From assembly GCF_000178955.2 (NCBI RefSeq), contig NC_016631.1, positions 2,108,001-2,172,000 on the forward strand: 64,000 nt of DNA, read 5' to 3'. The position numbers and the translations under genes are program-made. Positions 2,595 to 49,003 of the stretch are shown here, in pieces. Positions within the stretch are counted from its first letter, which is position 1, and the number at the start of each line of letters is the position of its first letter. This DNA comes from Granulicella mallensis MP5ACTX8. Its GTDB lineage: Bacteria > Acidobacteriota > Terriglobia > Terriglobales > Acidobacteriaceae. The notes below the pieces were generated by a model. The model was not told where the DNA came from, made no database searches, and worked only from the letters and a program-made list of their open reading frames with translations.

Positions 2595-3349
2595 GCGTTC
2601 ACTTTATCGGTGCCGGTCCGGGAGCGGCAGATCTACTTACTCTTCGAGGCCGTGACTTAATTCAGAAGTCCCAGGTGTGTCTCTACGCCGGCTCTCTGGT
2701 GCCGAAGGAAGTGCTTGCGCATGCTCCGGCCGGTGCTCGCATCATCGATTCTGCTGAGATGAACCTTGACGAGATTATTGCCGTAATCGCTGCGGCGCAT
2801 GAGGAAGGTCTTGATGTCGCGCGCATTCATTCGGGAGATCTCTCCATCTGGAGCACGATGGCGGAGCAGATTCGCCGCCTCACTCAGCTCGGCATTCCCT
2901 ACGATGTGACTCCCGGTGTTCCTTCCTTTGCCGCTGCCGCCGCTGCTCTGAGCCAGGAGCTGACACTACCCGAGATCGCCCAGACCCTGATCCTGACACG
3001 GACTTCGACTCGATCAACCCCCATGCCTCTTGGGGAAGATCTCACCACGCTGGGCAAGACCGGGGCAACGATGGCCATCCATCTCTCGATCATGAATCTC
3101 GAGATGGTGACCTCGCAGTTATTGCCGCTGTATGGAGCGGACTGTCCCGTCGTGGTGGTGTATCGAGCCAGTTGGCCGGACCAGGCTATTCTGCGAGGGA
3201 CGTTGTCTACGATTCAAGAGATCGTTGCTGCCTCAGGTATCAACAAGAATGCCCTGATTTTAGTCGGCAAATCTCTTGGCCAATCGGTCTTCGGTGAGAG
3301 CTATCTTTACTCCGCATCCAGAGATAGGGAACCGGAAGCAAAAGCGTAG
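2591..3349 (+). CDS. cobM: Precorrin-4 C11-methyltransferase CobM
   Basis: The 252-aa protein has the expected size and motifs of CobM/Cbi[21 protein letters not shown] at the N-terminus, [19 protein letters not shown], and [16 protein letters not shown] for the SAM-binding region. It methylates C11 of precorrin-4 using SAM. The start ATG overlaps the cobE stop (ATGA). The gene lies between cobE and cobK and is probably co-transcribed with them. Confidence 0.95.
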
Positions 3350-3368
3350 GGATTCAAGAGAGAAGGAA

Positions 3369-4178
3369 ATGCAGACGCTGCACGACATTACATCGAAGGA
3401 CGCTCCGCCACGCGTATTGATCCTCGGTGGAACCGGAGAGGGTGCGCAGCTTGCTGCCAGACTTGCAGAGAGAACAGACTTCATTGTGATCTCGTCGCTT
3501 GCCGGTCGAATCGGCGAACCTAAACTTCCCCAGGGTCTTGTCAGGGTGGGTGGTTTCGGTGGTCTTGATGCACTCGCCTCTTATCTCGTGAAGGAAGAGA
3601 TTAAAGCAGTGATTGACGCGACCCATCCTTTCGCCGCGAAGATCAGCCACAACGCCGCAATCGCGTGCAGTCGCACGGGATTACCGTTGATCGCTCTGCG
3701 TCGTCCACCCTGGGGAAAGATCGACGGAGACCTATGGCATGAGGTTGACGACTTTCAGAGTGCGGCCAGCTTTGTGGAGGCTAAGAAAGCTCGCGTATTT
3801 CTTTCTATTGGCCGCCAGGAAGTAGGTGCGTTCTCAGGGTGCAGGGATGCATGGTTTCTGATTCGCGCCATTGAGATGCCTGGTGAAGGTCTGCCGCCTC
3901 ATCACGAAGTGATCCTGCAACGTGGTCCCTTTGCGCTTGAGGATGAACTGCATTTGCTGCGCAAGTATTCCATCGATTATCTGGTTTCGAAAAATAGTGG
4001 CGGTTCGGCAACTTACACCAAGATCGAAGCTGCTCGTTTCCTTAAGATTCCGGTGGTGATGATCAACCGGCCTCTCAAGCCCTCTGTCCCGTGCGTCGGG
4101 ACAGTCGAAGAGGCTATCGATAGGCTTGAATGTCTCGTGCCTGCTGTTTCTAAATATTCGGAGGAGTGCAGAGGATGA
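3369..4178 (+). CDS. cobK: Precorrin-6A reductase CobK
   Basis: The 269-aa protein is the NADPH-dependent reductase that converts precorrin-6A to precorrin-6B. Visible motifs are RVLILGGTGEGAQLAARLAE (dinucleotide-binding start), VIDATHPFAAKISHNA and a C-terminal SKNSGGSATYTKIEAA. I chose the ATG at 3369, preceded by GAGAAGGAA, instead of the in-frame ATG at 3276, which lies inside the end of cobM and would add a basic unrelated 31-residue extension. The 3' end overlaps cobF by 4 bp. Confidence 0.93.
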   Translation: MQTLHDITSKDAPPRVLILGGTGEGAQLAARLAERTDFIVISSLAGRIGEPKLPQGLVRVGGFGGLDALASYLVKEEIKAVIDATHPFAAKISHNAAIACSRTGLPLIALRRPPWGKIDGDLWHEVDDFQSAASFVEAKKARVFLSIGRQEVGAFSGCRDAWFLIRAIEMPGEGLPPHHEVILQRGPFALEDELHLLRKYSIDYLVSKNSGGSATYTKIEAARFLKIPVVMINRPLKPSVPCVGTVEEAIDRLECLVPAVSKYSEECRG

Positions 4179-7390: not shown

Positions 7391-7396
7391 TATAAT
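7391..7396 (+). promoter_or_regulatory. Perfect -10 hexamer very close to the next start codon
   Basis: TATAAT at 7391-7396 lies only 10 bp upstream of the ATG at 7407, so a transcript would have a leader of a few bases at most. A convincing -35 is not visible. The spacing suggests leaderless or near-leaderless expression of the P-loop gene; it could also be chance. Confidence 0.35.
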
Positions 7397-7406
7397 CGGA
7401 AGACTC

Positions 7407-8087
7407 ATGAACGCTCCAATCGTATTTGTCAGCGGAAGCAAAGGCGGCGTCGGTAAATCCATCACCTCGATGGCAGTGCTCGACTACTTCACCACGCAGC
7501 ATACATTTCTGAAGCTGATTGAGTCGGACAAGAGCAATCCTGACGTATGGAGCTCTTACGGCAGCACCGTCGAGAGCGAAGGTGTGGACTTGGACGACGT
7601 TGAAGGCTGGATCCAGCTCGTAAACATCTGCGACGCACAGCCCTTCAAGGCGATTGTGGTCAATACGCCCGCGCGCAACAATATGGGCGTTCGTGCCCAT
7701 GGAGCGATCCTGCGCGACTCCCTGAAGGAGTTGGGACGTCCCCTCGTGACGCTGTGGGTGATCAATCGGCAACGCGACAGCCTGGAGTTGCTGAAAGAGT
7801 ATATGGAGCTGATGCCGGATGGGGTGACCCATGTCGTCAAGAATGGATACTTCGGAGAAGAGCGGAAGTTCGAGCTCTACGAGAAGAGCCCCGTTCATGA
7901 GAGCATCCAGCAGCAGAACGGCAAGAGCCTCTTCCTGCCGGACCTGGCGGATAGAGTCACGGACGAGCTTTACAGCAAAAGAATCACCCTGGCGGAAGCG
8001 GCCCAGCAGTTGAAGGTCGGCGACAGGGCAGAGCTGCAGCGATGGAGAACAGCGGTTGCAGAGATGCTGACCTCCATCGGGCTTTGA
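7407..8087 (+). CDS. ParA/TraL-like P-loop NTPase
   Basis: The 226-aa protein starts with a deviant Walker A motif (VFVSGSKGGVGKSITSMAVL), followed by LIESDKSNPDVW, as in MinD/ParA-type ATPases and especially the TraL-like proteins of mobilizable plasmids. There is no ParB partner, relaxase or centromere-like repeat nearby, so a partition role is not supported; it may be an orphan from a former mobile element. The ATG at 7407 sits directly before the P-loop sequence; an upstream in-frame ATG at 7329 would add a region overlapping the putative -10 box. Confidence 0.7.
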   Translation: MNAPIVFVSGSKGGVGKSITSMAVLDYFTTQHTFLKLIESDKSNPDVWSSYGSTVESEGVDLDDVEGWIQLVNICDAQPFKAIVVNTPARNNMGVRAHGAILRDSLKELGRPLVTLWVINRQRDSLELLKEYMELMPDGVTHVVKNGYFGEERKFELYEKSPVHESIQQQNGKSLFLPDLADRVTDELYSKRITLAEAAQQLKVGDRAELQRWRTAVAEMLTSIGL

Positions 8088-8229
8088 TTCCCATAGACGA
8101 TAGCAGTCTTCTGGAAGACTGGCGGTCCCGGTTTTATCTCACGTCATAAGGGGTTCCCAGCAGTGTATTCGATACCGTAAAGTAAACCTTTTGCCGAGAA
8201 TACCGGTCTATCAGGTTAACGAGGTCGCG

Positions 8230-8793
8230 ATGAAACTGCGTTTATCCTCTCTTCTTTTACTGGCTGCGCTTTGCGCAAGGGGCCATGCCCAGCAGCCGCA
8301 AGGGGCGGTTGAAGCCCTGCGTAGCCTGTGTTCGCAACCGGCGAATCATACCGCGTTTACCTTCGATCACAACATGCTCCAGGTGGCAGAGGGCTATATC
8401 GACGATGGCTCAGAGGGGAAACGCGCCTTCGCCGCGCTGAACAGTATTACGGTGGAGAACTTTCACTACCACGAGCCGGCGTTCTACCTCCCCGAAAGCA
8501 TGTCCGCGCTAGTAGCGGTTTATAACGCTGCGGGTTGGAAGCACCTGGTCAACCAGAATGCGCCACCGCGCGAGTCTGCTTCGCCTCATGCGCCGATCAC
8601 CGATCTGTGGCTGCACTTTCGCAGCGGCGAGATCGACGATGTGACCGTGCTGGTGCGGGGACAACGCGAGATGAACCTGATTGAAGTTTCAGGTGCGCTG
8701 CGGCCGCTCGATCTCGTGCACTTGAGCGGGCACTTTGGCATTCCGAAGATCGATCCGAATGCTGTGATGGTGCCTGCGCCTCCAGGGAAGTAG
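8230..8793 (+). CDS. Secreted DUF4252-like hypothetical protein
   Basis: The 187-aa product has a clear signal peptide (LRLSSLLLLAALCARGHAQ, cleavage after AHA/GHA). The mature domain contains VAEGYIDDGSEGKRAFAAL and DDVTVLVRGQREMNLIEVSG, an arrangement reminiscent of DUF4252 proteins seen in Bacteroidota and Acidobacteria. I recognised this by pattern only. GAGG nine bases before the ATG supports the start; an upstream ATG at 8191 would lack a proper signal sequence. Function unknown. Confidence 0.6.
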   Translation: MKLRLSSLLLLAALCARGHAQQPQGAVEALRSLCSQPANHTAFTFDHNMLQVAEGYIDDGSEGKRAFAALNSITVENFHYHEPAFYLPESMSALVAVYNAAGWKHLVNQNAPPRESASPHAPITDLWLHFRSGEIDDVTVLVRGQREMNLIEVSGALRPLDLVHLSGHFGIPKIDPNAVMVPAPPGK

Positions 8794-11439: not shown

Positions 11440-11833
11440 GATGTACCTATCGTTGGGCGTACTCAATGGGGAAAGCGGGCGACGAGGTGCAGGCACAATA
11501 CTACTGCACCCACACGCCTAAATTTTGCCGCCCGACAGGCTTTGGACTCTACTCTTCAGAGTGGCGAAGGCGGTATCAAGCTGGAATGACCGGTGAGCAG
11601 TACGCAAAGCTGAAGAGGTAGTGTTGTCATCGATTCCGCCAAGTTTCCACTTTCTCGGCGTGTGTGCTACAAAATTTGGGTGCATGATTCCCGTGCATCC
11701 CTCCGGGCCACAGTTTAGAACTCCACACCTGAATATCAGTGCAGTTCAAATCGCTTTCCTGCCTCTGTGTCTGCTGCACATTTCCTATGAGCACAGAGAT
11801 TCGTCAATCTCACAACATACAAGGAGAAATGAG
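11440..11833 (+). other. Intergenic block between the tandem modules
   Basis: No intact gene. It contains an in-frame relic at 11,586-11,621 (MTGEQYAKLKR-stop) and, from ~11,650, the second copy of the conserved leader leading into the small acidic ORF at 11,834. The tandem duplication unit of this region is about 1.2 kb. Confidence 0.5.
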
Positions 11834-12034
11834 ATGGCTCTAACTAGTATCTTTCCAGCCGTAGCAGAGGTAACCCCGCCCGAACAACCCTCTGCTGAAA
11901 ATGCCGATGTCACCACAGAAGAGAAGTCCAGCAATGAACAGGCTGTAGAGGCTCCCGAGAAAGAAACCTCTAATAGACCGGTCGTCGTACCGTCGATGGA
12001 TTCGCATAAAATAAAAGGAAACGTAACGTGGTGA
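11834..12034 (+). CDS. Small acidic repeat-family protein, copy 2
   Basis: The 66-aa product shares leader, ribosome site (ACAAGGAGAAATGAG then ATG) and the TTEEKSSNEQAVEAPEKE core with copies 1 and 3, while its C-terminus (MDSHKIKGNVTW) is unrelated to theirs. Conserved N-terminal/central part with a variable tail is the family pattern. Function unknown. Confidence 0.5.
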   Translation: MALTSIFPAVAEVTPPEQPSAENADVTTEEKSSNEQAVEAPEKETSNRPVVVPSMDSHKIKGNVTW

Positions 12035-12672: not shown

Positions 12673-12878
12673 GGCATTCCTATCGTTGGGCGTACATCCA
12701 TGTGGGAAGGCGGGTGACGAGGGGCAGGCACAATACTACTGCACCCACTTCAGAGGGGAGGCCAGATAGCGCTAGAAGTGACCGGTGAGCAATACGCAAA
12801 GCTACGGAGGTGAACTTACTTCATCCTTATCCGGCTCATTCACAATCAAGCTGAATCAATCATGCTCATTCATCACCA

Positions 12879-12909
12879 CGCCCCATCCTGACAGCAGGGC
12901 GGGGCTTTT
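12879..12909 (+). terminator. GCCCC/GGGGC hairpin terminator
   Basis: GCCCC (12,880-12,884) pairs with GGGGC (12,901-12,905) around CATCCTGACAGCAGGGC, followed by TTTT. A homologous, slightly decayed version lies at ~48,769-48,796. Confidence 0.6.
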
Positions 12910-13018
12910 GTGTTTGTGAATTGGTATTAGGTGCAGCGAAGTACAGCGTGCAAAAGTAGCACAAGTTGCTTTTGGAGGCTTTGATGATTTCTGGGGAGGG
13001 TTGTAAAACCTGCATATT

Positions 13019-13080
13019 TATTGAGGATTTATGGTGGCCCGGGCAGGAGTCCAACCTGCGACCTTCGCGTTAGGAGTGCG
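13019..13080 (-). repeat. attL: direct repeat containing the 3' part of tRNA-Arg
   Basis: 62 bp identical to 48,914-48,975 except at 13,031; the 49 bp from 13,032 to 13,080 are a perfect match. It comprises the CCA end, acceptor 3' strand, T arm, variable loop and anticodon half of tRNA-Arg(CCT), ending inside the anticodon stem; the 5' half of the tRNA is missing here. It defines the left prophage boundary. Confidence 0.9.
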
Positions 13081-16923: not shown

Positions 16924-18411
16924 ATGCGGAATAGTGGAATTAATTGGACAACGGGCACTTTCAATGCGTGGACGGGCTGCACAAAGATAGATCAGGAATG
17001 CAAGAACTGCTATGCAGAGGTATTGCTAGATCAGAGGTACGGGGCTAATAGAGAGAAGCGGTGGGGTACAGAAGCCAAGCGGAAACGGACTTCTGAAAGT
17101 AATTGGAAACAAGTAAAGAAATGGAACTCTGATGCGGCTTCCTCCGGGGAACCGCATTTCGTGTTTTGTGGCTCTTTGATGGATGTGATGGACGGCCATG
17201 AGTCGATTCCTCAGGCGTGGCGGGATGATCTCTATAAGCTGATATCGGAAACGCCCAATCTTACTTGGTTGCTTTTGACTAAGAGGCCAGAGAACTATGT
17301 GAGCTTTTTGAATGGGCGGCAATTGTCCTGGCCGCATGTGTGGCTTGGGACTACTTGCGGGCACGATGGCGATAAAGCAAGAGGCCGAATAGAGGCATTA
17401 CAAGGAACTCCTATTCATTCTGAGGCGCAGCGGTTCGTCTCGGCAGAGCCTCTTCTGAGTGATATCAGCGGTATCGATCTATCCGGCATTGGATGGGTGA
17501 TAGCGGGCGGTGAGAGCGGAGCTGGTGCAAGGCCATTTGATCTAAAGAATGCTTGGAATCTATATGAGGCGTGCGACCGGCAGCATATCGCATTTTGGTT
17601 TAAGCAGATAGGCGAGATCACTGTTGACGGCGCGGAATCAATCGAGAAAGTCAGCAGTCTCCATGATCTTTCGCAGGTGCCATCGAAGTATGCGGCGATG
17701 ATTCGGCGGGAGCGACCAGAGCCATATAGGGCAAGCGTGCAGGCCGTGCCCACGGTGAAGGCCGATCTCCCGGCTCTCGAAGCGGCTACATGGATGGATG
17801 CGACAGAGGGCACTGATTCGGCTCTGTCTGAGTGGGTTGATTGCCAGTTTCCGACTGATGAAGTGAAGGCTAGGGAACTTGTTCTGAGGCCGCAACTGTT
17901 GGCGGCGGTGACGGCGTTGAAGCGGTCCAGGTTCGATACCGGTCGGCTGTTGACTGAGTATCGGAAGCTGTTCAAAGGCACCTTCGACGGGCTTCTTAAT
18001 GCGCTGGGAATTAAGCGTAGGACAGGCTTCGACATCATTGAGGATTACGAGAGAGCGAAGGCTGTAGCTGAACCATTGAGGGCGGCAGCATCGCGAAAGG
18101 GAATCGATCTAGCGGAGCGGAAGTACGAGGACTTGGCTTTGCAATTGGCTAAGAGTGCGAAATCCGCACTGTCTGATGATGAGGCTGATGTCGAGTTTGA
18201 GGCTGTTGCTGAGGAAGTCAAGAGTGAGCGATTGAAGAGCAAGCTAGATAAAGGCAAAGCAGATAAGCTCGTTCAGATCTCGTTATCCGGCGGTGCTAAT
18301 GCGACAGAGTTGGAAGAGAAAGTGAAATCGGCCCTGGGTGCAGATGTGTTTCGGGCGCGATACATCGCCTGGCTGAAGACTCAAGAGGCGGCATTAGCGG
18401 AAGCTGCGTAA
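16924..18411 (+). CDS. DUF5131 (phage Gp37/Gp68) family protein with extended C-terminus
   Basis: The 495-aa protein has an N-terminal DUF5131 domain (~1-260) with the characteristic Cys cluster (WTGCTKIDQECKNCYAEV, C-x6-C-x2-C), the WLLLTKRPENY segment and GWVIAGGESGAGARPFD. The family is common in phages and defence/mobile loci; biochemical function is not established and a metal- or SAM-dependent TIM-barrel-like fold has been suggested by pattern. The ~230-residue C-terminal part is helical and charged and not part of the usual family. AAAGGGA precedes the ATG. A terminator follows at 18,423. Confidence 0.82.
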   Translation: MRNSGINWTTGTFNAWTGCTKIDQECKNCYAEVLLDQRYGANREKRWGTEAKRKRTSESNWKQVKKWNSDAASSGEPHFVFCGSLMDVMDGHESIPQAWRDDLYKLISETPNLTWLLLTKRPENYVSFLNGRQLSWPHVWLGTTCGHDGDKARGRIEALQGTPIHSEAQRFVSAEPLLSDISGIDLSGIGWVIAGGESGAGARPFDLKNAWNLYEACDRQHIAFWFKQIGEITVDGAESIEKVSSLHDLSQVPSKYAAMIRRERPEPYRASVQAVPTVKADLPALEAATWMDATEGTDSALSEWVDCQFPTDEVKARELVLRPQLLAAVTALKRSRFDTGRLLTEYRKLFKGTFDGLLNALGIKRRTGFDIIEDYERAKAVAEPLRAAASRKGIDLAERKYEDLALQLAKSAKSALSDDEADVEFEAVAEEVKSERLKSKLDKGKADKLVQISLSGGANATELEEKVKSALGADVFRARYIAWLKTQEAALAEAA

Positions 18412-18422
18412 GACGCAGAAAT

Positions 18423-18456
18423 GCCCGGCTCTCGTTATGAGTTGCCGGGCGTGTTT
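18423..18456 (+). terminator. Intrinsic terminator after the DUF5131 gene
   Basis: GCCCGGC (18,423-18,429) pairs with GCCGGGC (18,444-18,450), followed by GTGTTT. It may also serve the converging histone-like gene. Confidence 0.65.
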
Positions 18457-18485
18457 GCTTGCCTGTAATGCGGGTTGGGTAAGGT

Positions 18486-18839
18486 TTAAAACGCCAACGG
18501 CCCGTTATTCCGCTGCGCCTTGATGGAGACTTTCTTTGCGGCTTTCTTTGCCGGAGCCTTCTTCTTTGCCAAGGTCACAGGACCAGTAAGAGTGCCAGTC
18601 CCGGTAACTGTCGCTCTTGTCACGGTCTTCTTCTTGGCAGCGGCTTTCTTCGCTGGCTTGGCAGCGTAGGCCCCCATGTACATGCGTGACTTTGCTGGGG
18701 ACTTCCTCGCAGCCGTCTTCTTAACAGCCTTCTTCGCTGGTGCCTTCTTTGCTACAGCTTTCTTCGCGGGAGCCTTCTTGACTGCCTTCTTTACGGCTTT
18801 CTTTGCAGGAGCTTTCTTTACAGCTTTCTTGGTTGCCAT
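18486..18839 (-). CDS. Histone H1-like Lys/Ala-rich protein
   Basis: The 117-aa product is dominated by repeats of KKAPAKKAVKK and related units, with a short interruption (MYMGAYA) and a TVTGTGTLTGPVTL stretch before a final repeat block. Composition matches bacterial H1-like DNA-binding proteins (e.g. the C-terminal tail of HU variants), expected to bind and compact DNA. AGAGGCG before ATG 18,839 decides the start. Repeated codons make the locus prone to copy-number change. Presence in a prophage suggests a role in DNA packaging or nucleoid takeover. Confidence 0.75.
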   Translation of the reverse strand: MATKKAVKKAPAKKAVKKAVKKAPAKKAVAKKAPAKKAVKKTAARKSPAKSRMYMGAYAAKPAKKAAAKKKTVTRATVTGTGTLTGPVTLAKKKAPAKKAAKKVSIKAQRNNGPLAF

Positions 18840-18962
18840 TGTGTCGCCTCTCATAGATGAATTGGGAGCCTACACCAGAATGAGGTCGATGCAGCGAATG
18901 GGGAAGACTCAACTTTGGTTCATGCGCGAGGCATAAGACTCACCCTCGCAGCATCGACTGAT

Positions 18963-19157
18963 TCAGATTCTGTGCGACATCAGGGCGGCTGCGAACATCG
19001 CAACGTAGGAAAGTGTCAGCATTTTCCAATAGCCATTCTTGCCTAATCGAAAGGGTATTGAAGGGAACCCGACTTTGGGACCGTAGCGAAGGACCTGCCA
19101 CAGGATGAATGCGAGAACCGGGGGAGCTAAGACAAGAATCAAGATTGTGGTCTGCAT
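18963..19157 (-). CDS. Small membrane protein
   Basis: The 64-aa product has two hydrophobic segments (TILILVLAPPVLAFILWQVL and LTLSYVAMFAAALM) separated by a basic loop. GGAGGT at a good distance before the ATG supports translation. No family recognised; could be a holin-like or superinfection-exclusion peptide, but nothing in the sequence decides this. Confidence 0.55.
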   Translation of the reverse strand: MQTTILILVLAPPVLAFILWQVLRYGPKVGFPSIPFRLGKNGYWKMLTLSYVAMFAAALMSHRI

Positions 19158-19240
19158 TGCTGCTACCTCCGCAATAACTATTTCATGCTTTCTTCAGCTT
19201 TGACCAGCGTCTCTTCTGTGAAGCGTTGATTCTAGCGCAT

Positions 19241-19702
19241 TCAGCAGGCCTTCTTAAAGCATTTGATCCGTTTTGGCATGTTAGTTCGTACTGATGGTGG
19301 GGAATTCTTAATCCTCTTCAAGAGTCGCTTTACATCCGTTTGCTCGGCAGGGCTGAGGCTTTCATCAAATATCAATCGGGCAGGACGTGTCACATACATC
19401 CGCTGCGCGAGATCGGGCGCTATGATGCGCAAGTCCAAATCTTGATCCTCGAACGAGACAAATCGATCGAATGTAACCAAAGGGCCACGTCCCCCTGGGC
19501 ATTCGTGTCTATGTGGACCCACACCAATCCAATTCAACTTGTAGGCTATCCCATTTGCTCTGGCTTCGCCGCCACTCCCACCAATCCCTATTACAGCGTC
19601 ATAGGAATAGCCTCGGACAACCCCCATGCAGTCGTGGATTCCAAACCGCCCCTTTTCGTCTGGATCACCATTGTGAGTTCGTTTATAGATGAGGGTTCTC
19701 AT
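19241..19702 (-). CDS. Hypothetical prophage protein with conserved N-terminal motif
   Basis: The 153-aa product starts MRTLIYKRTHNGDPDEKGRF and continues GIHDCMGVVRGYSYDAVIGI, a pattern I associate with unclassified phage/island proteins. Cys and His residues in HDC and GPHRHECPG could bind metal or be catalytic. The ATG at 19,702 gives the conserved start; the frame is open to 19,747. It is the last minus-strand gene before the putative ncRNA locus. Confidence 0.55.
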   Translation of the reverse strand: MRTLIYKRTHNGDPDEKGRFGIHDCMGVVRGYSYDAVIGIGGSGGEARANGIAYKLNWIGVGPHRHECPGGRGPLVTFDRFVSFEDQDLDLRIIAPDLAQRMYVTRPARLIFDESLSPAEQTDVKRLLKRIKNSPPSVRTNMPKRIKCFKKAC

Positions 19703-19770
19703 GCCGGATAGTGTACATGGCGCTGATGTTTTACTGTGTTGTCTCAAAAGTATCGAGAGTCATGTGCCTT

Positions 19771-19792
19771 GAAAATAATTTCAATTATTTTC
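19771..19792 (+). promoter_or_regulatory. Palindromic operator upstream of the ncRNA promoter
   Basis: Two perfect 10-bp arms, GAAAATAATT and AATTATTTTC, flank a 2-bp centre. The -35 hexamer of the promoter at 19,801 starts 8 bp further on. The same palindrome (one arm mismatch) precedes the promoter at 21,491, where the gap is 18 bp, i.e. one helical turn more. Confidence 0.7.
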
Positions 19793-19800
19793 GTTTTCCA

Positions 19801-19829
19801 CTGACGGAATTGAAAAAGATTCCGATACT
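19801..19829 (+). promoter_or_regulatory. Promoter of the putative structured ncRNA
   Basis: CTGACG (19,801-19,806) and GATACT (19,824-19,829) are separated by exactly 17 bp. The unit is repeated as TTGATG-17-CATACT at 21,491-21,519, including GGAAAAAG-like spacer sequence. The predicted start of transcription is near 19,836. Confidence 0.6.
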
Positions 19830-19836
19830 ACCTATT

Positions 19837-20470
19837 TACATAAGCAGCAAAGCCCATCTGGATATTTGAAAACGGGGCAATTGAGCATTGAAACCGGGCC
19901 GTCGTGATGACGCCTCGACCGAAGGGCTCAATACGCATGGTAAGAAGTTAGACTGTCCCATGACCGGGTAACGCACTCAGGCGTCCGGCGAAGTGATGAA
20001 CCGATATGTTCGGGTGGGGCACAGCACAAGCGATACAGGGCATGATGTAAAGAGCCTTGGATCACTCTCCGAAGGGAGCTGGTGTGTTGGCGATACTTTC
20101 TCAGGATGCGTTACAGGACCGGGGGGTGACAGAGCACCCATAGCCAGCCTGAGAGTACGAGTCTAAGAAAGTCATACGCTAAGGTCTTTATACTGTCGGC
20201 CCTCCTCAGGGTAACGATTGGTGATGATTCAGAGTGATGCACTTCTCTTCAATACCTATAGGGTAAGGAGAAGTGTGTCACCACTGAATCATTGCCTGTC
20301 GTTATAGGGTGCGACGACAAGTTCATTCATGCTGTGATGTGATGCCAGACGATCTCTGTGTATGACGTGCTGCCAATCTGTTGAAGTCAGCCATCATTAA
20401 CACCCTATCTGGCCCTGACCATTTGTACTTGCGGTGTTTGATTCGTAAGCAACAGGTCTATCGTCTGTGA
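19837..20470 (+). ncRNA. Putative large structured non-coding RNA of the prophage
   Basis: This ~630-bp stretch lacks any plausible gene but is full of complementary segments. Examples: 19,880-19,886 with 19,926-19,932 (ATTGAGC/GCTCAAT); 20,099-20,105 with 20,148-20,154 (TCTCAGG/CCTGAGA) enclosing GGGTG/CACCC; a long hairpin 20,213-20,303 with 9-, 8- and several shorter runs; 20,304-20,311 with 20,401-20,408 (ATAGGGTG/CACCCTAT); 20,428-20,433 with 20,444-20,449; and 20,346-20,353 with 20,460-20,467 (CAGACGAT/ATCGTCTG), which would form a pseudoknot with the previous pair. Several G-U pairs fit only the + strand. Size and phage location recall GOLLD/ROOL-type RNAs, but I cannot assign a family. 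The 3' end is approximate. Confidence 0.6.
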
Positions 20471-20511
20471 AGGTAATATGCTTCACTGAACGTGGCTGAT
20501 AGCATGGTCGA

Positions 20512-21351
20512 ATGCCAAATTCTCCGACACCACGAGAACTCCTGCTAGTAAAAGTTGACAGGGCCTATAAGCACATCATCGATCTTGAGGCCGAAATCCT
20601 CCAATTCAATCGGGAGGGAGACAGTCACGAAATCTTCTCTAAGGACGACCTTCAGACCGGTGAGCGAACGTTTTATCTCCGAATTATCAAGGATATCCCT
20701 CTGGGCATTTCTGCGCTTGTCGGAGATGTTGTTCAGAATCTCAGAAGCACACTCGATCATCTTGCCTTTCACTTGGTACAAAGTAGCCCCATTACTCCTA
20801 AGCCCAAAGAGCAAGACATTTACTTCCCCATCTATGAGACGGCCGCCAAATACGATTCTGGAAAGATGAGAAAAACACAAAGCATGGCGGATGCTGCTAT
20901 AAAGGCTATCGATGACATCCAGCCCTACTACAGAAGCGACCCCATTGATTACTCCGCTGGGATCGGGAATGGAACTCCCCTCTTTTGGCTCGACGAAGTC
21001 AGCAAGCTCGATAAGCATCGCCTTCTCGTCACGATTCGAGGTGATGTAGTATCCCATTCCCTTCCAAAATCTAAGCGGATTGAGATGGCCAATTTCTTGA
21101 AGACCGCATTGGGGAGCACGTCGGCTGATGTTCGGATTGCCTTTAGGCCAACTGATAGCCCTTTGGTAGATGGCAGCGTGTTGTGTACCCTCCCCATCGC
21201 AGATGTAGACAATAAGATGGAGTTTGGATTTCAAATAGCCTTCGGAGAGCCGAAATGGGTTAGAGGCAAGGAACTGCTCTCTACTTTGAAGCACTGGCAC
21301 AAGTTCGTTAGAGATATTATCGAGGACTTCGACGCTAAAGGTTTGCTCTGA
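20512..21351 (+). CDS. Hypothetical protein
   Basis: The 279-aa product has an N-terminal helix (LLLVKVDRAYKHIIDLEAEI), then VGDVVQNLRSTLDHLAFHLV, a motif recurring in unclassified proteins of soil bacteria, and a later WLDEVSKLDKHRLLV. It appears soluble, with no catalytic signature. The opposite-strand frame (20,545-21,300) gives an implausible protein. It directly follows the putative ncRNA and may be co-transcribed with it. Confidence 0.6.
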   Translation: MPNSPTPRELLLVKVDRAYKHIIDLEAEILQFNREGDSHEIFSKDDLQTGERTFYLRIIKDIPLGISALVGDVVQNLRSTLDHLAFHLVQSSPITPKPKEQDIYFPIYETAAKYDSGKMRKTQSMADAAIKAIDDIQPYYRSDPIDYSAGIGNGTPLFWLDEVSKLDKHRLLVTIRGDVVSHSLPKSKRIEMANFLKTALGSTSADVRIAFRPTDSPLVDGSVLCTLPIADVDNKMEFGFQIAFGEPKWVRGKELLSTLKHWHKFVRDIIEDFDAKGLL

Positions 21352-21450: not shown

Positions 21451-21519
21451 GAAAATAATTACAACTATTTTCATTTATTTGCGTTTTTCGTTGATGGTTT
21501 AGCGTGGAAAAAGCATACT
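21451..21519 (+). promoter_or_regulatory. Second copy of palindrome plus promoter, driving the early operon
   Basis: The palindrome arms are GAAAATAATT (21,451-21,460) and AACTATTTTC (21,463-21,472), with one mismatch. The promoter is TTGATG (21,491-21,496), 17 bp, then CATACT (21,514-21,519). It precedes the HNH/regulator operon starting at 21,607. Shared architecture with 19,771-19,829 implies common control. Confidence 0.65.
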
Positions 21520-21606: not shown

Positions 21607-22221
21607 ATGCAAGCTCTGCTCGACAATCCCCCAAATCCCAACATTCCTGAAAAGTTCATAGACAGGTTCTTCGATAAGGTCCAGGTCGATCCTGTGACCG
21701 GCTGCTGGCACTTTGACGCTGCTCGCTTTCGCAACGGATATGCCCATTTCCATAATCCCGTCACAACCGCGTATGCCCATAGATTTTCTTTCCTAGCCTT
21801 TAATGGCCCTCTTCAAAAGGGTCTGAGTGTCCAACATCGTTGTCCGGCTGGATCGAATAAGGCATGTGTCAACCCTGCTCATCTCTTCCAGGACACGGCG
21901 AAGAAGAACAGCCAGGATGCTGTTGTTGAAGGTCTGTATTCGGCTACACCACGCCGTAAACAAGTGAAGGCTACAACGGAAGAGATTGCAGACATTCGCA
22001 AACGTTTCAATGATGGGGAATCTCTATATTCCATCGCGAAGAAATGGAATCGTTCTGTTCCGTATGTGTCGAGTGTCGCCTCGATGAAGCTGCACACTGG
22101 CAAACCACGCAAGCCTAGGGCTCCTCTATCAGGCATATCAGCAGTAGAGAAACCCGCCAAAAAGAAGAGTGGAAAGGTCTGGGACACATTAGCCACCCAT
22201 CTCGCAAAGGAGGCCGCGTAA
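21607..22221 (+). CDS. HNH endonuclease with C-terminal helix-turn-helix
   Basis: The 204-aa protein has an HNH_3-type nuclease domain: GCWHFDAARFRNGYAHF, AHRFSFLAFNG, then the HNH core LSVQHRCPAGSNKACVNPAH. Residues ~120-160 (TTEEIADIRKRFNDGESLYS) form a putative DNA-binding helix-turn-helix. TAGGAA precedes the ATG. Such phage HNH proteins act as free-standing homing endonucleases or packaging-associated nickases; far from the terminase, homing is more likely. It is the first gene after the repeated promoter. Confidence 0.75.
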   Translation: MQALLDNPPNPNIPEKFIDRFFDKVQVDPVTGCWHFDAARFRNGYAHFHNPVTTAYAHRFSFLAFNGPLQKGLSVQHRCPAGSNKACVNPAHLFQDTAKKNSQDAVVEGLYSATPRRKQVKATTEEIADIRKRFNDGESLYSIAKKWNRSVPYVSSVASMKLHTGKPRKPRAPLSGISAVEKPAKKKSGKVWDTLATHLAKEAA

Positions 22222-22379
22222 TGACCAATCAGAGAGAACGGAACGCGGAAGCCATTGAGCGGTATGCCCAGCAGGTTCGCGAAGCCTCGGCCGATGTGGA
22301 AAGAGCATTTAAGAAGGTTCAAGAATTGATCGATCGATATTACCCAAACGGGATCATGGAGAAAGACGATGCAGAATAA
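22221..22379 (+). CDS. Small coiled-coil hypothetical protein
   Basis: The 52-aa frame starts one base after the upstream stop (TAATG overlap) with AAAGGAGG upstream and overlaps the next gene by 11 bp. The product (MTNQRERNAEAIERYAQQVR...) is a single charged helix likely to form a coiled coil, ending EKDDAE. Tight packing and the strong ribosome site argue it is real. Function unknown. Confidence 0.6.
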   Translation: MTNQRERNAEAIERYAQQVREASADVERAFKKVQELIDRYYPNGIMEKDDAE

Positions 22380-22794
22380 TCGCCTCGCTCCAGATCACTT
22401 CTTTCGCCTTGCGGATGCACGAAATAGAGATTACCGGCAAGACCAATACGTCGCATTGCTTGAGGCCGCGCCACAAACTGAAAAGGCAGCATTAGCAATC
22501 CTCCGAACGGTTCATCATCGGCAAGAGACATCACGCCGTCGGGATCGTAAGTGGACTGTCCAGCCCGACCTGACATTCGATCCCATCGCGCCACAGGGAG
22601 AAGATACAGACGGTCATATAGTAGCTGCCTTATCCTGCTTGCCCCTTGAAGATCAAGACATAATCAGCCAACACATCATCGAAGGAATGTCACTCAGAGA
22701 CATTGCCAAGCAGCAAGGCGTCTCGAAGGACTGCATTCGTAAGCGGTATGACCACGCCAAGCAGAAACTTCAGGCACTCGCCCAAAAAGAGTAG
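22369..22794 (+). CDS. Sigma-region-4-like transcriptional regulator
   Basis: The 141-aa product ends in a clear sigma-70 region 4 / LuxR-like helix-turn-helix: LPLEDQDIISQHIIEGMSLR followed by DIAKQQGVSKDCIRKRYDHA. The N-terminal half is polar with no region 2, so it is not a complete sigma factor. Phages use such proteins as late-gene activators (RinA/ArpU-like). It is a candidate regulator of the palindrome/promoter units in this prophage, though that is inference. Confidence 0.7.
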   Translation: MQNNRLAPDHFFRLADARNRDYRQDQYVALLEAAPQTEKAALAILRTVHHRQETSRRRDRKWTVQPDLTFDPIAPQGEDTDGHIVAALSCLPLEDQDIISQHIIEGMSLRDIAKQQGVSKDCIRKRYDHAKQKLQALAQKE

Positions 22795-22937
22795 CCAATT
22801 TCCTTCTCAAAGACCCGTAATAAGTAGAGGGGAAATATCTCCGCATCAGTCCGATCATTCGATCACCCACCTATTGACTGTTAACGCGTGCTGCATAAAC
22901 CCCGCCCAATAGAGAACCAACCCCTCGACACATTCAA

Positions 22938-23156
22938 ATGCGAAAAGACACATCACTCCCAAAGCGGGAGAAACACATCCCCGAACGTATCAAGCTCGCT
23001 GACGCGTCCGCTCATCCTGGTGTCGAACTCATCGAAGCCTTGACCGAGAGACGGCCAACAGCCGAAGCCAAAGCGATTCTCGAATCATGGCGTTTCAAAT
23101 ATCAGCCGTATAGCGGCAAAACACACCCTAAAAATAGGTACATCCTAAATGTCTAA
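22938..23156 (+). CDS. Small hypothetical protein
   Basis: The 72-aa basic product (KREKHIPERIKLADASAHPG, ending GKTHPKNRYILNV) overlaps the next gene by 8 bp. No family recognised. About 140 bp upstream are free of genes. Confidence 0.5.
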   Translation: MRKDTSLPKREKHIPERIKLADASAHPGVELIEALTERRPTAEAKAILESWRFKYQPYSGKTHPKNRYILNV

Positions 23157-23451
23157 TTGGATCACTAACGCCGCCGACGCCATTGCACACGCCTTCACAA
23201 GCGTATTCGGCTCAACAGCCGCAAAGAACTTCCTCGATGCCGAAAAGAACATCCTAAAGACTGCTCTCGGTGTCATCGCAAAGGATGCCGTCACAGCAGT
23301 TCAGCAAGACGTAACCAGTCCTCTATCTGAAGCCCAATGGGCAACAGCAGCCGCCACCATCGGCGCTAAAGCAGCAGGCGAGGGAATCGTCGTAGCCGGT
23401 CAAGAAATCGACCTGTTGATTGGATTGTTCAGCGCCGTCAAGGTCAGCTAG
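23149..23451 (+). CDS. Small Ala-rich hypothetical phage protein
   Basis: The 100-aa product has two amphipathic/hydrophobic helical regions (AADAIAHAFTSVFGSTAAKN and IGAKAAGEGIVVAGQEIDLL). It may associate with membranes or oligomerise. Its stop overlaps the start of the HNH gene by one base. No catalytic motif. Confidence 0.55.
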   Translation: MSNWITNAADAIAHAFTSVFGSTAAKNFLDAEKNILKTALGVIAKDAVTAVQQDVTSPLSEAQWATAAATIGAKAAGEGIVVAGQEIDLLIGLFSAVKVS

Positions 23452-23828
23452 TGCCCCAGGCTGCAAAGCGCCCATGCAAGAAGTCAGGATGCAGTGAACT
23501 CACCTTATCCGGCTATTGCGAGAAACACAGCACGACAGACAATCTGTACAAATACGATAATCATCGTGGTTCAGCAACATCTCGCGGATACGGTGCGGAC
23601 TGGAACAGGCTCCGTGTGCAGGCACTCATCAGAGACTTCTATCTCTGTGTCCGTTGCAAAGCGAACGGCGATATAAAGCCCGCTACGGATGTTGACCATA
23701 TCCGGCCATTCAATGGCAAAGACGATACTCTCCGTCTTGATATAGACAACCTTCAATCCCTTTGCAAAGCCTGTCACTCACGCAAAACGGCCAAGGAAGA
23801 TGGCGGCTTCGGTCACGCCAAATCATGA
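23451..23828 (+). CDS. HNH endonuclease
   Basis: The 125-aa protein starts at a GTG overlapping the previous stop. It has an N-terminal Cys pair (CKKSGCSELTLSGYCEKH) and a canonical HNH core: CVRCKANGDIKPATDVDHIR, then LQSLCKACHSRKTAKEDGG. Small HNH proteins of this type often sit near terminase genes of HK97-like phages and assist packaging. Here it is separated from terS by other genes. Confidence 0.85.
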   Translation: MPQAAKRPCKKSGCSELTLSGYCEKHSTTDNLYKYDNHRGSATSRGYGADWNRLRVQALIRDFYLCVRCKANGDIKPATDVDHIRPFNGKDDTLRLDIDNLQSLCKACHSRKTAKEDGGFGHAKS

Positions 23829-26127: not shown

Positions 26128-27054
26128 CTACCAATCTCGATATGGCAGATTCGATTTCGTCACATTAGCTGATGTCAATCCAATTGAGCGGCAAAAGCCA
26201 AAGACCGCGAGCTGAGTGAGATCAGCATTGGGCGTCGGTCCTATTTTGATCTCAGTGACTGCATCCCAACGAAAAACGTCAGGACGCATCTCCTCGGCGG
26301 CTTTCGAATGAGGCACATTTAGGGCGACATACGGGACCAAAGATGAACGCGTACATCTGAACTCAATTTGATGGGCCTGCTGGAATTGGGATGGCAGAAC
26401 CAAACGATACTCAGATTCGCTGCTGAATCCCTTATGTTTGTAAAAACTGGCCTGAGCTTCGATGTTGAAACGGAAGTAAGCGTCGATACTAGCGAACTCA
26501 TCTCCATAGTTATCCTTTAGCTCCTGCACTGACTTCAACGCATCGTTATACGCCGAATTCAATACTTTAATCGCAAGCTCGCCGTCATTAGGATCAACAT
26601 AGAATACGCGTTTGAATTCACAGGGCAGTATATAGTCCCACACGTTTCGCTTATAACCCTCGTAGGCAGGCTTCCACGCAAGCTCTACTGCTTTTAGACA
26701 CTCTGTCTTGAATCCGATGCTGACGCCGTTAGCCTGTGGACAATACGAGCGCCATTGATTCAGCGAATCTGACTCTGCGGAGAACGATGCGACATATGGA
26801 CCATCGGGTACCTGTGATCGCTGGCTAATTCGAAATTGTTCGACTTCCATGCGATGTTCTGACGCGAAGTTGAGTAAATGTCCATCCACGGTGTCGAGCA
26901 GAAGGTTCCGCTCAGAGACATCATTCAAATATCCGATATCCGTAGCCCATATCTTCTGTGTCTTCAGAATCTTCATCATTGAAGCCAGAGACGTGTAGTG
27001 ATACACCACGGTCGGCTCTACGTCTGGAATCAGGGGTTTGAGAACACTGCTCAT
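26128..27054 (-). CDS. DUF2971 family protein
   Basis: The 308-aa protein shows the DUF2971 pattern: VVYHYTSLASMMKIL at the N-terminus, ATDIGYLNDVSERNLL, YVASFSAESDSLNQWRSYC followed by GVSIGF, and SFYKHKGFSSESEYRLVLP. The family is scattered in accessory and defence-linked loci and its activity is unproven. It is a minus-strand gene between early genes and terS, the typical place for a moron expressed from the prophage. Confidence 0.78.
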   Translation of the reverse strand: MSSVLKPLIPDVEPTVVYHYTSLASMMKILKTQKIWATDIGYLNDVSERNLLLDTVDGHLLNFASEHRMEVEQFRISQRSQVPDGPYVASFSAESDSLNQWRSYCPQANGVSIGFKTECLKAVELAWKPAYEGYKRNVWDYILPCEFKRVFYVDPNDGELAIKVLNSAYNDALKSVQELKDNYGDEFASIDAYFRFNIEAQASFYKHKGFSSESEYRLVLPSQFQQAHQIEFRCTRSSLVPYVALNVPHSKAAEEMRPDVFRWDAVTEIKIGPTPNADLTQLAVFGFCRSIGLTSANVTKSNLPYRDW

Positions 27055-47930: not shown

Positions 47931-48283
47931 GGCACTACCTCAAATTGGGATTTATATGGGCCAAGGCGGATTATGAAAATATAGCGGATTGCTGGCTGAT
48001 GTGTGCGCTTGGTTCATTTATTCAAGCCGAATGCAACGCAATTGAAACTAAAAAGGCCAGTCCGTGATGGGCGGGCCTTTTGTTGTGCTCACTTGGACGC
48101 CTGAAAGCCGGATGTGGTACAAAATTTGGGTGCATGATTCCCGTGCATTCCTCCGGGCCATCTTTCCGAACACCACACCTGAATATCAGTGCAGTTGAAT
48201 TGGCTTTCCTGCCTCTGTGTCTGCCACACATTTCCAACGAGCACAGAAAGTTATGAATTTCACAACATACAAGGAGAAATGAT
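47931..48283 (+). other. Gene-poor stretch with terminator and conserved leader
   Basis: Apart from the doubtful frame to 48,067, no gene. It contains the third GGCC hairpin (48,055-48,081) and the third copy of the ~170-bp leader (from ~48,112) that precedes the small acidic ORF. In this copy the leader frame is interrupted by TGA, so conservation of the leader is not due to coding. Confidence 0.5.
48055..48081 (+). terminator. Repeated GGCC hairpin terminator, copy 3
   Basis: GGCCAGTCC (48,055-48,063) pairs with GGGCGGGCC (48,069-48,077) with one mismatch, then TTTT. Homologous to copies at 8,899 and 10,410 outside the prophage. Confidence 0.6.
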
Positions 48284-48559
48284 ATGAGCAACATGATATC
48301 CGAGAGTGCATTCTTTGCAGAGAACCCCACGGAAGAGAAGTCAACCGATGAACAGGCTCCAACGAAGGAAGCGGTCCTAAAGGCAAGTGAGGACTTCCAT
48401 GCGATACCGTTGAGCATGGTGGCCGACGCGGATAAGCCTACGGAGGAAAAAGCCCCCGAGAAGTTGAACCCAGCACTTACCGGTCAGGATATGCTCCAAC
48501 CAAAACGCCAAACGTTCGTAAAACCAAACGAGGACCTCGCGGCACTTGACGCGCTTTAA
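48284..48559 (+). CDS. Small acidic repeat-family protein, copy 3 (prophage)
   Basis: The 91-aa product shares the leader, the AAGGAGAAATGATATG start region and the core NPTEEKSTDEQAPTKE with the two chromosomal copies, then contains a second related unit (KPTEEKAPEKLNPALTGQDM) and a unique tail. It is the last gene before attR, the place of lysogenic-conversion cargo. Confidence 0.6.
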   Translation: MSNMISESAFFAENPTEEKSTDEQAPTKEAVLKASEDFHAIPLSMVADADKPTEEKAPEKLNPALTGQDMLQPKRQTFVKPNEDLAALDAL

Positions 48560-48629: not shown

Positions 48630-48839
48630 TCCGTTTAAGGAGACTGTTCCGAACTGATATGGAAGACCGCACGTGACCGGAGAGCAATTCATCAAGCTAC
48701 GTAAGTGAACTCACTTCATCCTTATCCGGCTCGCTCTCTAACAACCTGAATCAATCAGCACTGCGCCTCATCCTGACAGCAGGGTGGGGCTTTTCTGCTC
48801 GCGGATTGGTATTGTGTGCAGCAAAGTACAGCGAAACAA

Positions 48840-48859
48840 AATCACACCAGAATCACACA
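48840..48859 (+). promoter_or_regulatory. Putative integrase arm-binding sites, right
   Basis: AATCACACC (48,840-48,848) and AATCACACA (48,851-48,859) repeat with 11-bp spacing, matching the pair at 13,209-13,228 in sequence, orientation and spacing. They lie ~55 bp inside the right att repeat. Confidence 0.6.
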
Positions 48860-48913
48860 GCAGCCCAAAATGGATTTTGATGCTTTTGAGTGAATGCTAC
48901 GAACCCGCATGGA

Positions 48914-48975
48914 TATTGAGGATTTTTGGTGGCCCGGGCAGGAGTCCAACCTGCGACCTTCGCGTTAGGAGTGCG
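48914..48975 (-). repeat. attR: direct repeat within the complete tRNA-Arg
   Basis: Matches attL at 13,019-13,080 with a single mismatch (48,926). The 3' half of the tRNA within this repeat was supplied by the phage and rebuilds the gene. Confidence 0.9.
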
Positions 48976-49003
48976 CTGCTCTATGCAACTGAGCTACCGG
49001 GCC
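48930..49003 (-). tRNA. tRNA-Arg (anticodon CCT)
   Basis: A 74-nt cloverleaf: acceptor GGCCCGG/CCGGGCC, D stem GCTC/GAGC, T stem GCAGG/CCTGC, discriminator A, encoded CCA at 48,927-48,929. The anticodon loop CTCCTAA puts CCT at 48,967-48,969. The anticodon stem has three G-C pairs in the middle, with G27/A43 and A31/C39 mismatched. Position 19 is C and position 56 is G, an inversion of the near-universal G19-C56 tertiary pair. It is the integration target of the prophage. Confidence 0.92.

Follow-up and report, generated by a model that had tools for sequence, protein, structure and literature searches.

A candidate large structured RNA in an operator-linked, apparently exchangeable cassette of Acidobacteriaceae prophages

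Introduction

The closest described systems are GOLLD (RF01998), a large structured RNA of phages and prophages whose level rises during lysis, and ROOL, a prophage RNA which contains pseudoknots and has no known partner, both as presented in the passages of PMC12286853 devoted to them. The function of GOLLD, ROOL and other large phage RNAs is not known. A large RNA is also found near an HNH-domain gene in HEARO and the IsrB omega-RNA. With regard to acidobacterial prophages, no such RNAs were mentioned in the titles and abstract openings of the literature searched, which was mainly open-access journal literature. PMC11924767, which deals with acidobacterial viruses, contains none of the terms noncoding, non-coding and ncRNA, and the available passages of PMC5900883, which describe a prophage cluster with many Granulicella members, contain no description of ncRNAs in that cluster.

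The window analysed here is a 64,000-nt stretch of the Granulicella mallensis MP5ACTX8 genome, in which a large structured phage RNA with its own promoter, read from the + strand, had been predicted from the letters alone. Its locus was compared with those of five related phages, namely G136, a prophage from the same genus, G105, G083, G113 and the metagenome phage L028.

Results

The prophage and its ORF-free interval

The source genome of the window consists of one contig of 6,237,577 bases. The prophage is a lower-GC stretch located at about 9–49 kb of the window and possesses an integrase gene, recognized by a family match, as well as terminase and structural genes, recognized by homology to IMG/VR viral contigs together with ORF reading. 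Near both of its ends there are repeats, namely 11663–11836 and 48113–48286 (87% identity), and 12778–13080 and 48673–48975 (75%), which possibly represent an attachment site or duplicated ends. The last of these copies extends into the tRNA-Arg gene at 48927–49003, the only tRNA gene of the window, lying about 28 kb from the interval described below.

No ORF of at least 60 aa touches positions 19,748–20,511, which is in line with the predicted lack of a plausible gene over about 630 bp; this is the longest such gap in the prophage, the runner-up being 230 nt long. On its own, the gap is weak evidence because an internal ORF of at least 60 aa was likewise absent from 59 of 300 shuffles of the same segment. 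The proposed structured noncoding RNA occupies 19836–20500 on the + strand, with both ends predicted and the 3′ end uncertain (about 20470–20511), and contains no ORF of at least 60 aa.

Operator and promoter

The putative promoter CTGACG-17-GATACT is located at 19801–19829 on the + strand, with CTGACG at 19,801–19,806 and GATACT at 19,824–19,829, and its position points to a transcript start near 19,836. The sequence of this predicted promoter with a 17-bp spacer is thus present and also kept in G136, although the site was not listed by a generic sigma-70 promoter scan. Upstream of it lies the palindromic operator AAAATAATTTCAATTATTTT (19772–19791), with its centre about 54 bp before the expected start, which is also kept in G136 and for which 0 matches are expected in window shuffles. 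A second operator and promoter, leading to the HNH gene, were found at 21452–21519 on the + strand and consist of a near copy of the operator (21452–21471) followed by TTGATG at 21491 and, after 17 bp, CATACT at 21514. The palindrome is separated from the '-35' element by 9 nt at the RNA promoter and by 19 nt at the HNH promoter; the two spacings are one helical turn apart, which suggests that the operator may act via an activator.

A pattern combining the half-operator and the promoter occurs once per genome in three of the 28 genomes of the genus, and its reversed control never does. In the window and G136 it precedes the RNA, in G083 the HNH gene. In the viral contig collection (viral_contigs), the operator-promoter pattern was found in 20 stretches, three of which are known members; the other 17 loci gave no match to 31 proteins of the lineage.

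Predicted fold of the window RNA

The most prominent element of the predicted fold is the main long hairpin at 20213–20303 (+), with a folding energy of -52.4 kcal/mol versus -39.0 kcal/mol on the opposite strand. Its stability was matched by none of 500 shuffles, no 91-nt window among the 7,160 taken in 10-nt steps on both strands exceeded it, and the four wobble pairs on which the strand had been assigned (G239–U276, U238–G277, U222–G294 and G223–U293 of 20,xxx) are present as claimed. The candidate pseudoknot at 20304–20467 (+) is formed by two mutually crossing, perfect 8-bp helices, 20304–20311 with 20401–20408 and 20346–20353 with 20460–20467, and when the 3′ 211 nt were shuffled 1,000 times, any such crossing pair of 8-bp Watson-Crick helices appeared in only 8 cases, so both of these elements of the original prediction hold. 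The many long-range complementary segments do not exceed chance, as the six helices of at least 8 bp (shuffle mean 2.6) were equalled in number by 17 of 300 shuffles; the best long-range helix of the window RNA was equalled in 57 of 60 shuffles.

The proposed RNA as a whole has a folding z-score of -3.92 in the sense and -2.62 in the antisense orientation (40 shuffles). With regard to the energy over 676 nt, the interval ranks first among 90 windows of the + strand (z -3.73), its rivals being an intragenic window at 17,800 (z -3.56) and the antisense of the interval itself (z -3.21), and a scan with 150-nt windows did not single it out. The folding energy of the whole interval is therefore not unique in the prophage.

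Downstream genes

The interval is followed by a cargo ORF of 279 aa (20512–21351, +), which is absent from the same place in the relatives, has no match in Pfam, PHROGs, PADLOC or NCBIfam and for which structure prediction was uninformative (mean pLDDT 33). No terminator-like site was found between the RNA and this ORF. Next comes the gene (21607–22221, +) coding for a homing-endonuclease-like HNH_3 protein of 204 aa, assigned with Pfam and PHROGs, with a weak helix-turn-helix match and no RuvC match. The gene at 22369–22794 (+) encodes, according to family matches, a regulator resembling sigma-70 region 4 or the Q antiterminator, hereafter the sigma-like protein, which serves as the lineage marker. 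It shares 96% identity with its counterpart in G136 and 51% with that in G105, while the HNH protein has diverged to 35% between the window and G136.

The same locus in related phages

The window and G136 share at 92% a 74-bp island (19772–19845) comprising the operator and the promoter, beyond which no RNA sequence aligns. The outer flanks, 18,396–19,225 and 22,204–23,603, are about 91% identical to G136, and a segment that starts at about +10 of the transcript and extends through the HNH gene, thus comprising the RNA, the cargo and the HNH gene, is replaced, as is 19,226–19,771 on the opposite side of the island. Two further genes of the window have counterparts in G136: the gene at 18486–18854 (-) codes for a Lys/Ala-rich (KKA) histone-H1-like protein, present also in the G136 prophage and with no match in Pfam or PHROGs, and the one at 26128–27054 (-) codes for a DUF2971 protein with weak matches to the candidate defence models PDC-S31 and 36% identity to a G136 protein encoded at the same place.

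G105 and L028 were recognized by the same landmarks, namely an excisionase-like gene, an ORF-poor interval, an HNH gene and a sigma-like gene. G083 was included via the search with the G105 RNA, its HNH gene being also among the matches of the HNH search. The promoters read from the sequence have the form seen in the window, being TTGCTT-17-TATATT in G105, TTGATG-17-CATACT in L028 and TTGACG-17-TATACT in G083. In G113, the gap is bordered by the HNH gene and a gene of 396 aa, and the better fold is that of the minus strand (z -3.22 versus -0.93), which carries the only promoter of the searched form within the gap and heads toward the end of a convergent gene. The next ORF after the RNA codes for 279 aa in the window, 165 aa in G136, 54 aa in G105 and 155 aa in L028, and G083 has no ORF of at least 60 aa that lies wholly between the RNA and the HNH gene on the RNA strand. 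The 155-aa protein of L028 (2883–3350) has no match in Pfam or NCBIfam, and we take it, by its motif, to resemble an HUH replication protein. The loci of the relatives contain one tRNA gene, which precedes the G105 interval by about 3.5 kb.

In each of the six related phages of the Acidobacteriaceae, no ORF-poor gap of the examined locus is larger than the one at this place, the gap being defined across the six as free of ORFs of at least 85 aa (60 aa in the window). The sense and antisense z-scores from 40 shuffles are -3.92 and -2.62 for the window, -2.58 and +0.45 for G136, -2.60 and -0.34 for G105, -0.72 and -0.38 for G083, -5.04 and -1.84 for L028, and -2.63 and -1.48 for G113. The sense value is the lower one in 6/6, with the strand of G113 chosen after folding, and on the strand read by the promoter the fold surpasses every shuffle in five of the six phages, G083 being weak.

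As controls, 78 loci (L080–L157) from the HNH search were used, of which 69 remained after filtering for a length of at least 6 kb and the absence of N; L098 was excluded as a copy of G136. A gap of at least 500 nt was found in 12 of the 69 control phage loci, and four of these 12 fold at z ≤-2.5 on one strand. All four relatives picked by synteny or RNA homology (G136, G105, G083 and L028) have the gap (P 0.0017 versus the controls), and three of them, G083 being the exception, fold at z ≤-2.5 (P 0.002), a comparison of differing procedures since the control segments were cut to 650 nt and folded against 12 shuffles and the z-scores of the relatives come from 40. The window and G113 were excluded from both tests as they had been chosen by their gaps. 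Among five further HNH loci (L194–L198), a gap upstream of the HNH gene is found in one, L194. In L197 (G172), there is a 1,289-nt ORF-poor gap (7396–8684) downstream of the HNH gene. The phage L030, with a related terminase (70%), was not counted as a further member: its region 2930–3600, in front of a 358-aa ORF, contains iteron-like TATGCG repeats as well as direct repeats of 24 nt, and its fold is modest (z -1.94).

Searches for homologues and known families

No homologues of the window RNA were detected in phage or plasmid collections. Among 397 genomes of the order, it matched itself, the promoter island of G136 and six stretches of 24–32 nt (E 0.002–0.008), which were taken as chance matches and not as homologues; one of them, L004, looks like a host locus, and the other five were compared by BLAST. 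The sigma-like protein was found in three of 398 genomes of the family, including its own, and at two loci in genome_contigs, and no phage record matched it. The HNH alignment proved generic in viral_contigs, where the best 80 of 155 stretches were kept; it matched 20 of the 398 genomes, yielding G113 and G083.

Two covariance models, R1 and R2, built for the G105/G083 RNA, match only those two among the six sources and do not match the window, G136 or L028; R1 did not match G113 either. In 160 genomes of the family per model, R1 found G083 and a weak match in G067 (E 0.03), and R2 found G083 only. A search of viral_contigs with an 18-nt core pattern gave no match. BLAST among the six RNAs showed similarity for G105 and G083 only, and 10-mers shared across the RNA types are, judged by eye, no commoner in the sense orientation than expected. 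As neither BLAST nor the models reveal any likeness outside G105/G083, the six RNAs appear to be five unrelated sequence types.

None of the intervals has a match in Rfam, including GOLLD and ROOL, the model of the latter being presumably part of the library searched. When the window interval was searched at E up to 10, seven matches were returned, the best being microRNA models at E 0.47 and all far under threshold; the original prediction had seen no basis for equating this RNA with GOLLD or ROOL, and the covariance search agrees at both stringencies. A type III toxin-antitoxin RNA was rejected as there are no tandem repeats (0 direct-repeat families of at least 14 nt) and neither PADLOC nor Pfam matches the cargo. 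An intron, a retron and a CRISPR element were set aside as alternatives, as no Rfam, protein or repeat support was seen for them.

Pair-preserving changes between G105 and G083

The RNAs of G105 and G083 are 90% identical over about 435 nt. Their joint fold has 115 pairs, six of which are changed on both sides. When substitutions are placed independently as the null, the G105 structure shows four double changes versus 0.64–0.67 expected (P 0.004) and the G083 structure four versus 0.53–0.72 (P 0.002–0.003). Broken pairs number six versus 16.0 expected for the G105 centroid (P 0.0002) and 11 versus 17.0 for its MFE structure (P 0.02), six versus 15.1 for the G083 centroid (P 0.0008) and 17 versus 21.4 for its MFE structure (P 0.08), the deficit being significant in three of the four tests. 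The two RNAs differ by indels of 1 and 2 nt, and their longest sense ORFs are 79 and 44 aa, respectively, in one RNA and its partner, which argues against a protein. A 14-bp closing helix in G105 was equalled in two of 60 shuffles, and its 5′ arm is missing in G083. Due to the compensatory changes in this pair, the G105/G083 type appears to be a real structured RNA. Comparative folding among acidobacterial prophages, proposed with the original prediction, has thus given pair-preserving changes in two positional relatives but found no homologue of the window RNA.

Discussion

The ORF-free stretch probably gives rise to a large folded RNA and not to a protein, and we consider it somewhat better than an even bet that this is a free-standing, promoter-driven structured phage RNA located in a swappable cassette with the HNH gene. 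For the predicted RNA read from the + strand, the position, the conserved operator and promoter and the compensatory changes between two of the positional relatives speak in favor, but the searches returned no homologue of the window RNA itself. According to the model, the free-standing RNA of about 650 nt would be transcribed on the + strand from CTGACG-17-GATACT, and its fold would combine a strong rod with a pseudoknotted 3′ domain. The palindromic operator would be common to the RNA and the downstream HNH/sigma-like operon, and due to this shared operator both would probably be switched on together upon prophage induction. By analogy with what has been proposed for GOLLD and ROOL, the RNA may work in trans, either as a particle or as a decoy, possibly in the form of oligomers. 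The RNA, an optional cargo gene and the HNH gene would form a segment which is exchanged between related phages with the promoter retained, and the HNH protein might be the driver of this exchange. Transcription, its timing, the action in trans, the particle or decoy role and the HNH-driven exchange are what we infer from the arrangement of the locus; a free-standing trans-acting RNA coregulated with the HNH/sigma-like operon would fit all six phages.

An RNA could also be made as a very long structured 5′ leader (an attenuator, an antiterminator or another cis regulator) cotranscribed with the cargo gene at 20,512. That ORF directly follows the RNA with no terminator-like site found between them, and ORFs also follow the RNA in G136, G105 and L028; however, the following ORF is different in each phage, G083 has none of at least 60 aa wholly between the RNA and the HNH gene on the RNA strand, the RNA strand of G113 points to the end of a convergent gene, and with about 650 nt it would be a long leader, so we regard this explanation as unlikely. 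Even less probable is decayed or junk intergenic sequence with a chance hairpin. The lack of sequence relatedness between the relatives and the 59 of 300 shuffles also devoid of internal ORFs speak for it, but the hairpin and the crossing helices exceed chance, the promoter island is conserved, pair-preserving changes are seen in G105/G083 and the gap is present in six phages.

The inverted repeats might instead belong to a DNA element, such as a replication origin or a packaging or recombination site, and only mimic RNA structure. The window antisense also folds well (z -2.62), and the L028 interval precedes the HUH-replication-like protein, which resembles that group by its motif and has no family match, but the sense strand folds better than the antisense in 6/6, a promoter stands in front of the interval and the changes in G105/G083 are G-U compatible, which makes such an element very improbable. 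We give least credence of all to a strongly diverged RNA of the GOLLD, ROOL or HEARO type: the size, the prophage setting and the pseudoknot, together with the rise of GOLLD in phage lysis noted in the passages of PMC12286853, are reminiscent of these RNAs, but no interval has an Rfam match and no tRNA gene is nearby, the closest case among the relatives being that of G105, at a distance of about 3.5 kb.

Returning to the free-standing RNA in an exchangeable cassette, it is tempting to extend it to a class defined by slot and promoter and not by sequence. In one lineage of acidobacterial phages, an operator-controlled locus would receive unrelated RNAs, of which the six phages show five types, through the exchange of cassettes, with an HNH homing-like nuclease as a possible agent. 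This might be expected of RNAs that serve as particles or decoys in a phage-host arms race; this broader proposal is tentative, and we would put it somewhat below an even chance. Such a locus, where the promoter is kept and the RNA exchanged, would be a natural comparison, as features common to the unrelated RNAs, such as expression time, oligomerisation or partners, would indicate function. RNAs of this kind escape covariance-model searches and may therefore be commoner than Rfam suggests.

Comparison with known systems

Like GOLLD, the proposed RNA is large, structured and carried by a prophage; unlike GOLLD, the members of which are often longer than 800 nt and lie near tRNA islands, it is about 650 nt long with no tRNA gene within about 28 kb, and it has no Rfam match at the gathering threshold or at E up to 10. 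It shares with ROOL the prophage setting and, as a candidate, a pseudoknot, but ROOL has multiple pseudoknots and forms homo-oligomers, and one candidate pseudoknot was seen here. The proposed RNA is not near tRNA genes and likewise has no Rfam match to ROOL. With HEARO and the IsrB omega-RNA it shares the neighborhood of an HNH-domain gene, differing in that Rfam gives no match and that the window HNH protein (204 aa, HNH_3) lacks RuvC and is not encoded adjacent to the RNA. Finally, the locus resembles those of free-standing phage homing endonucleases (intronless homing) in having an HNH gene within a segment replaced between otherwise similar phages; here, however, the exchanged segment would also carry a structured RNA, and its putative spread by homing is a hypothesis.
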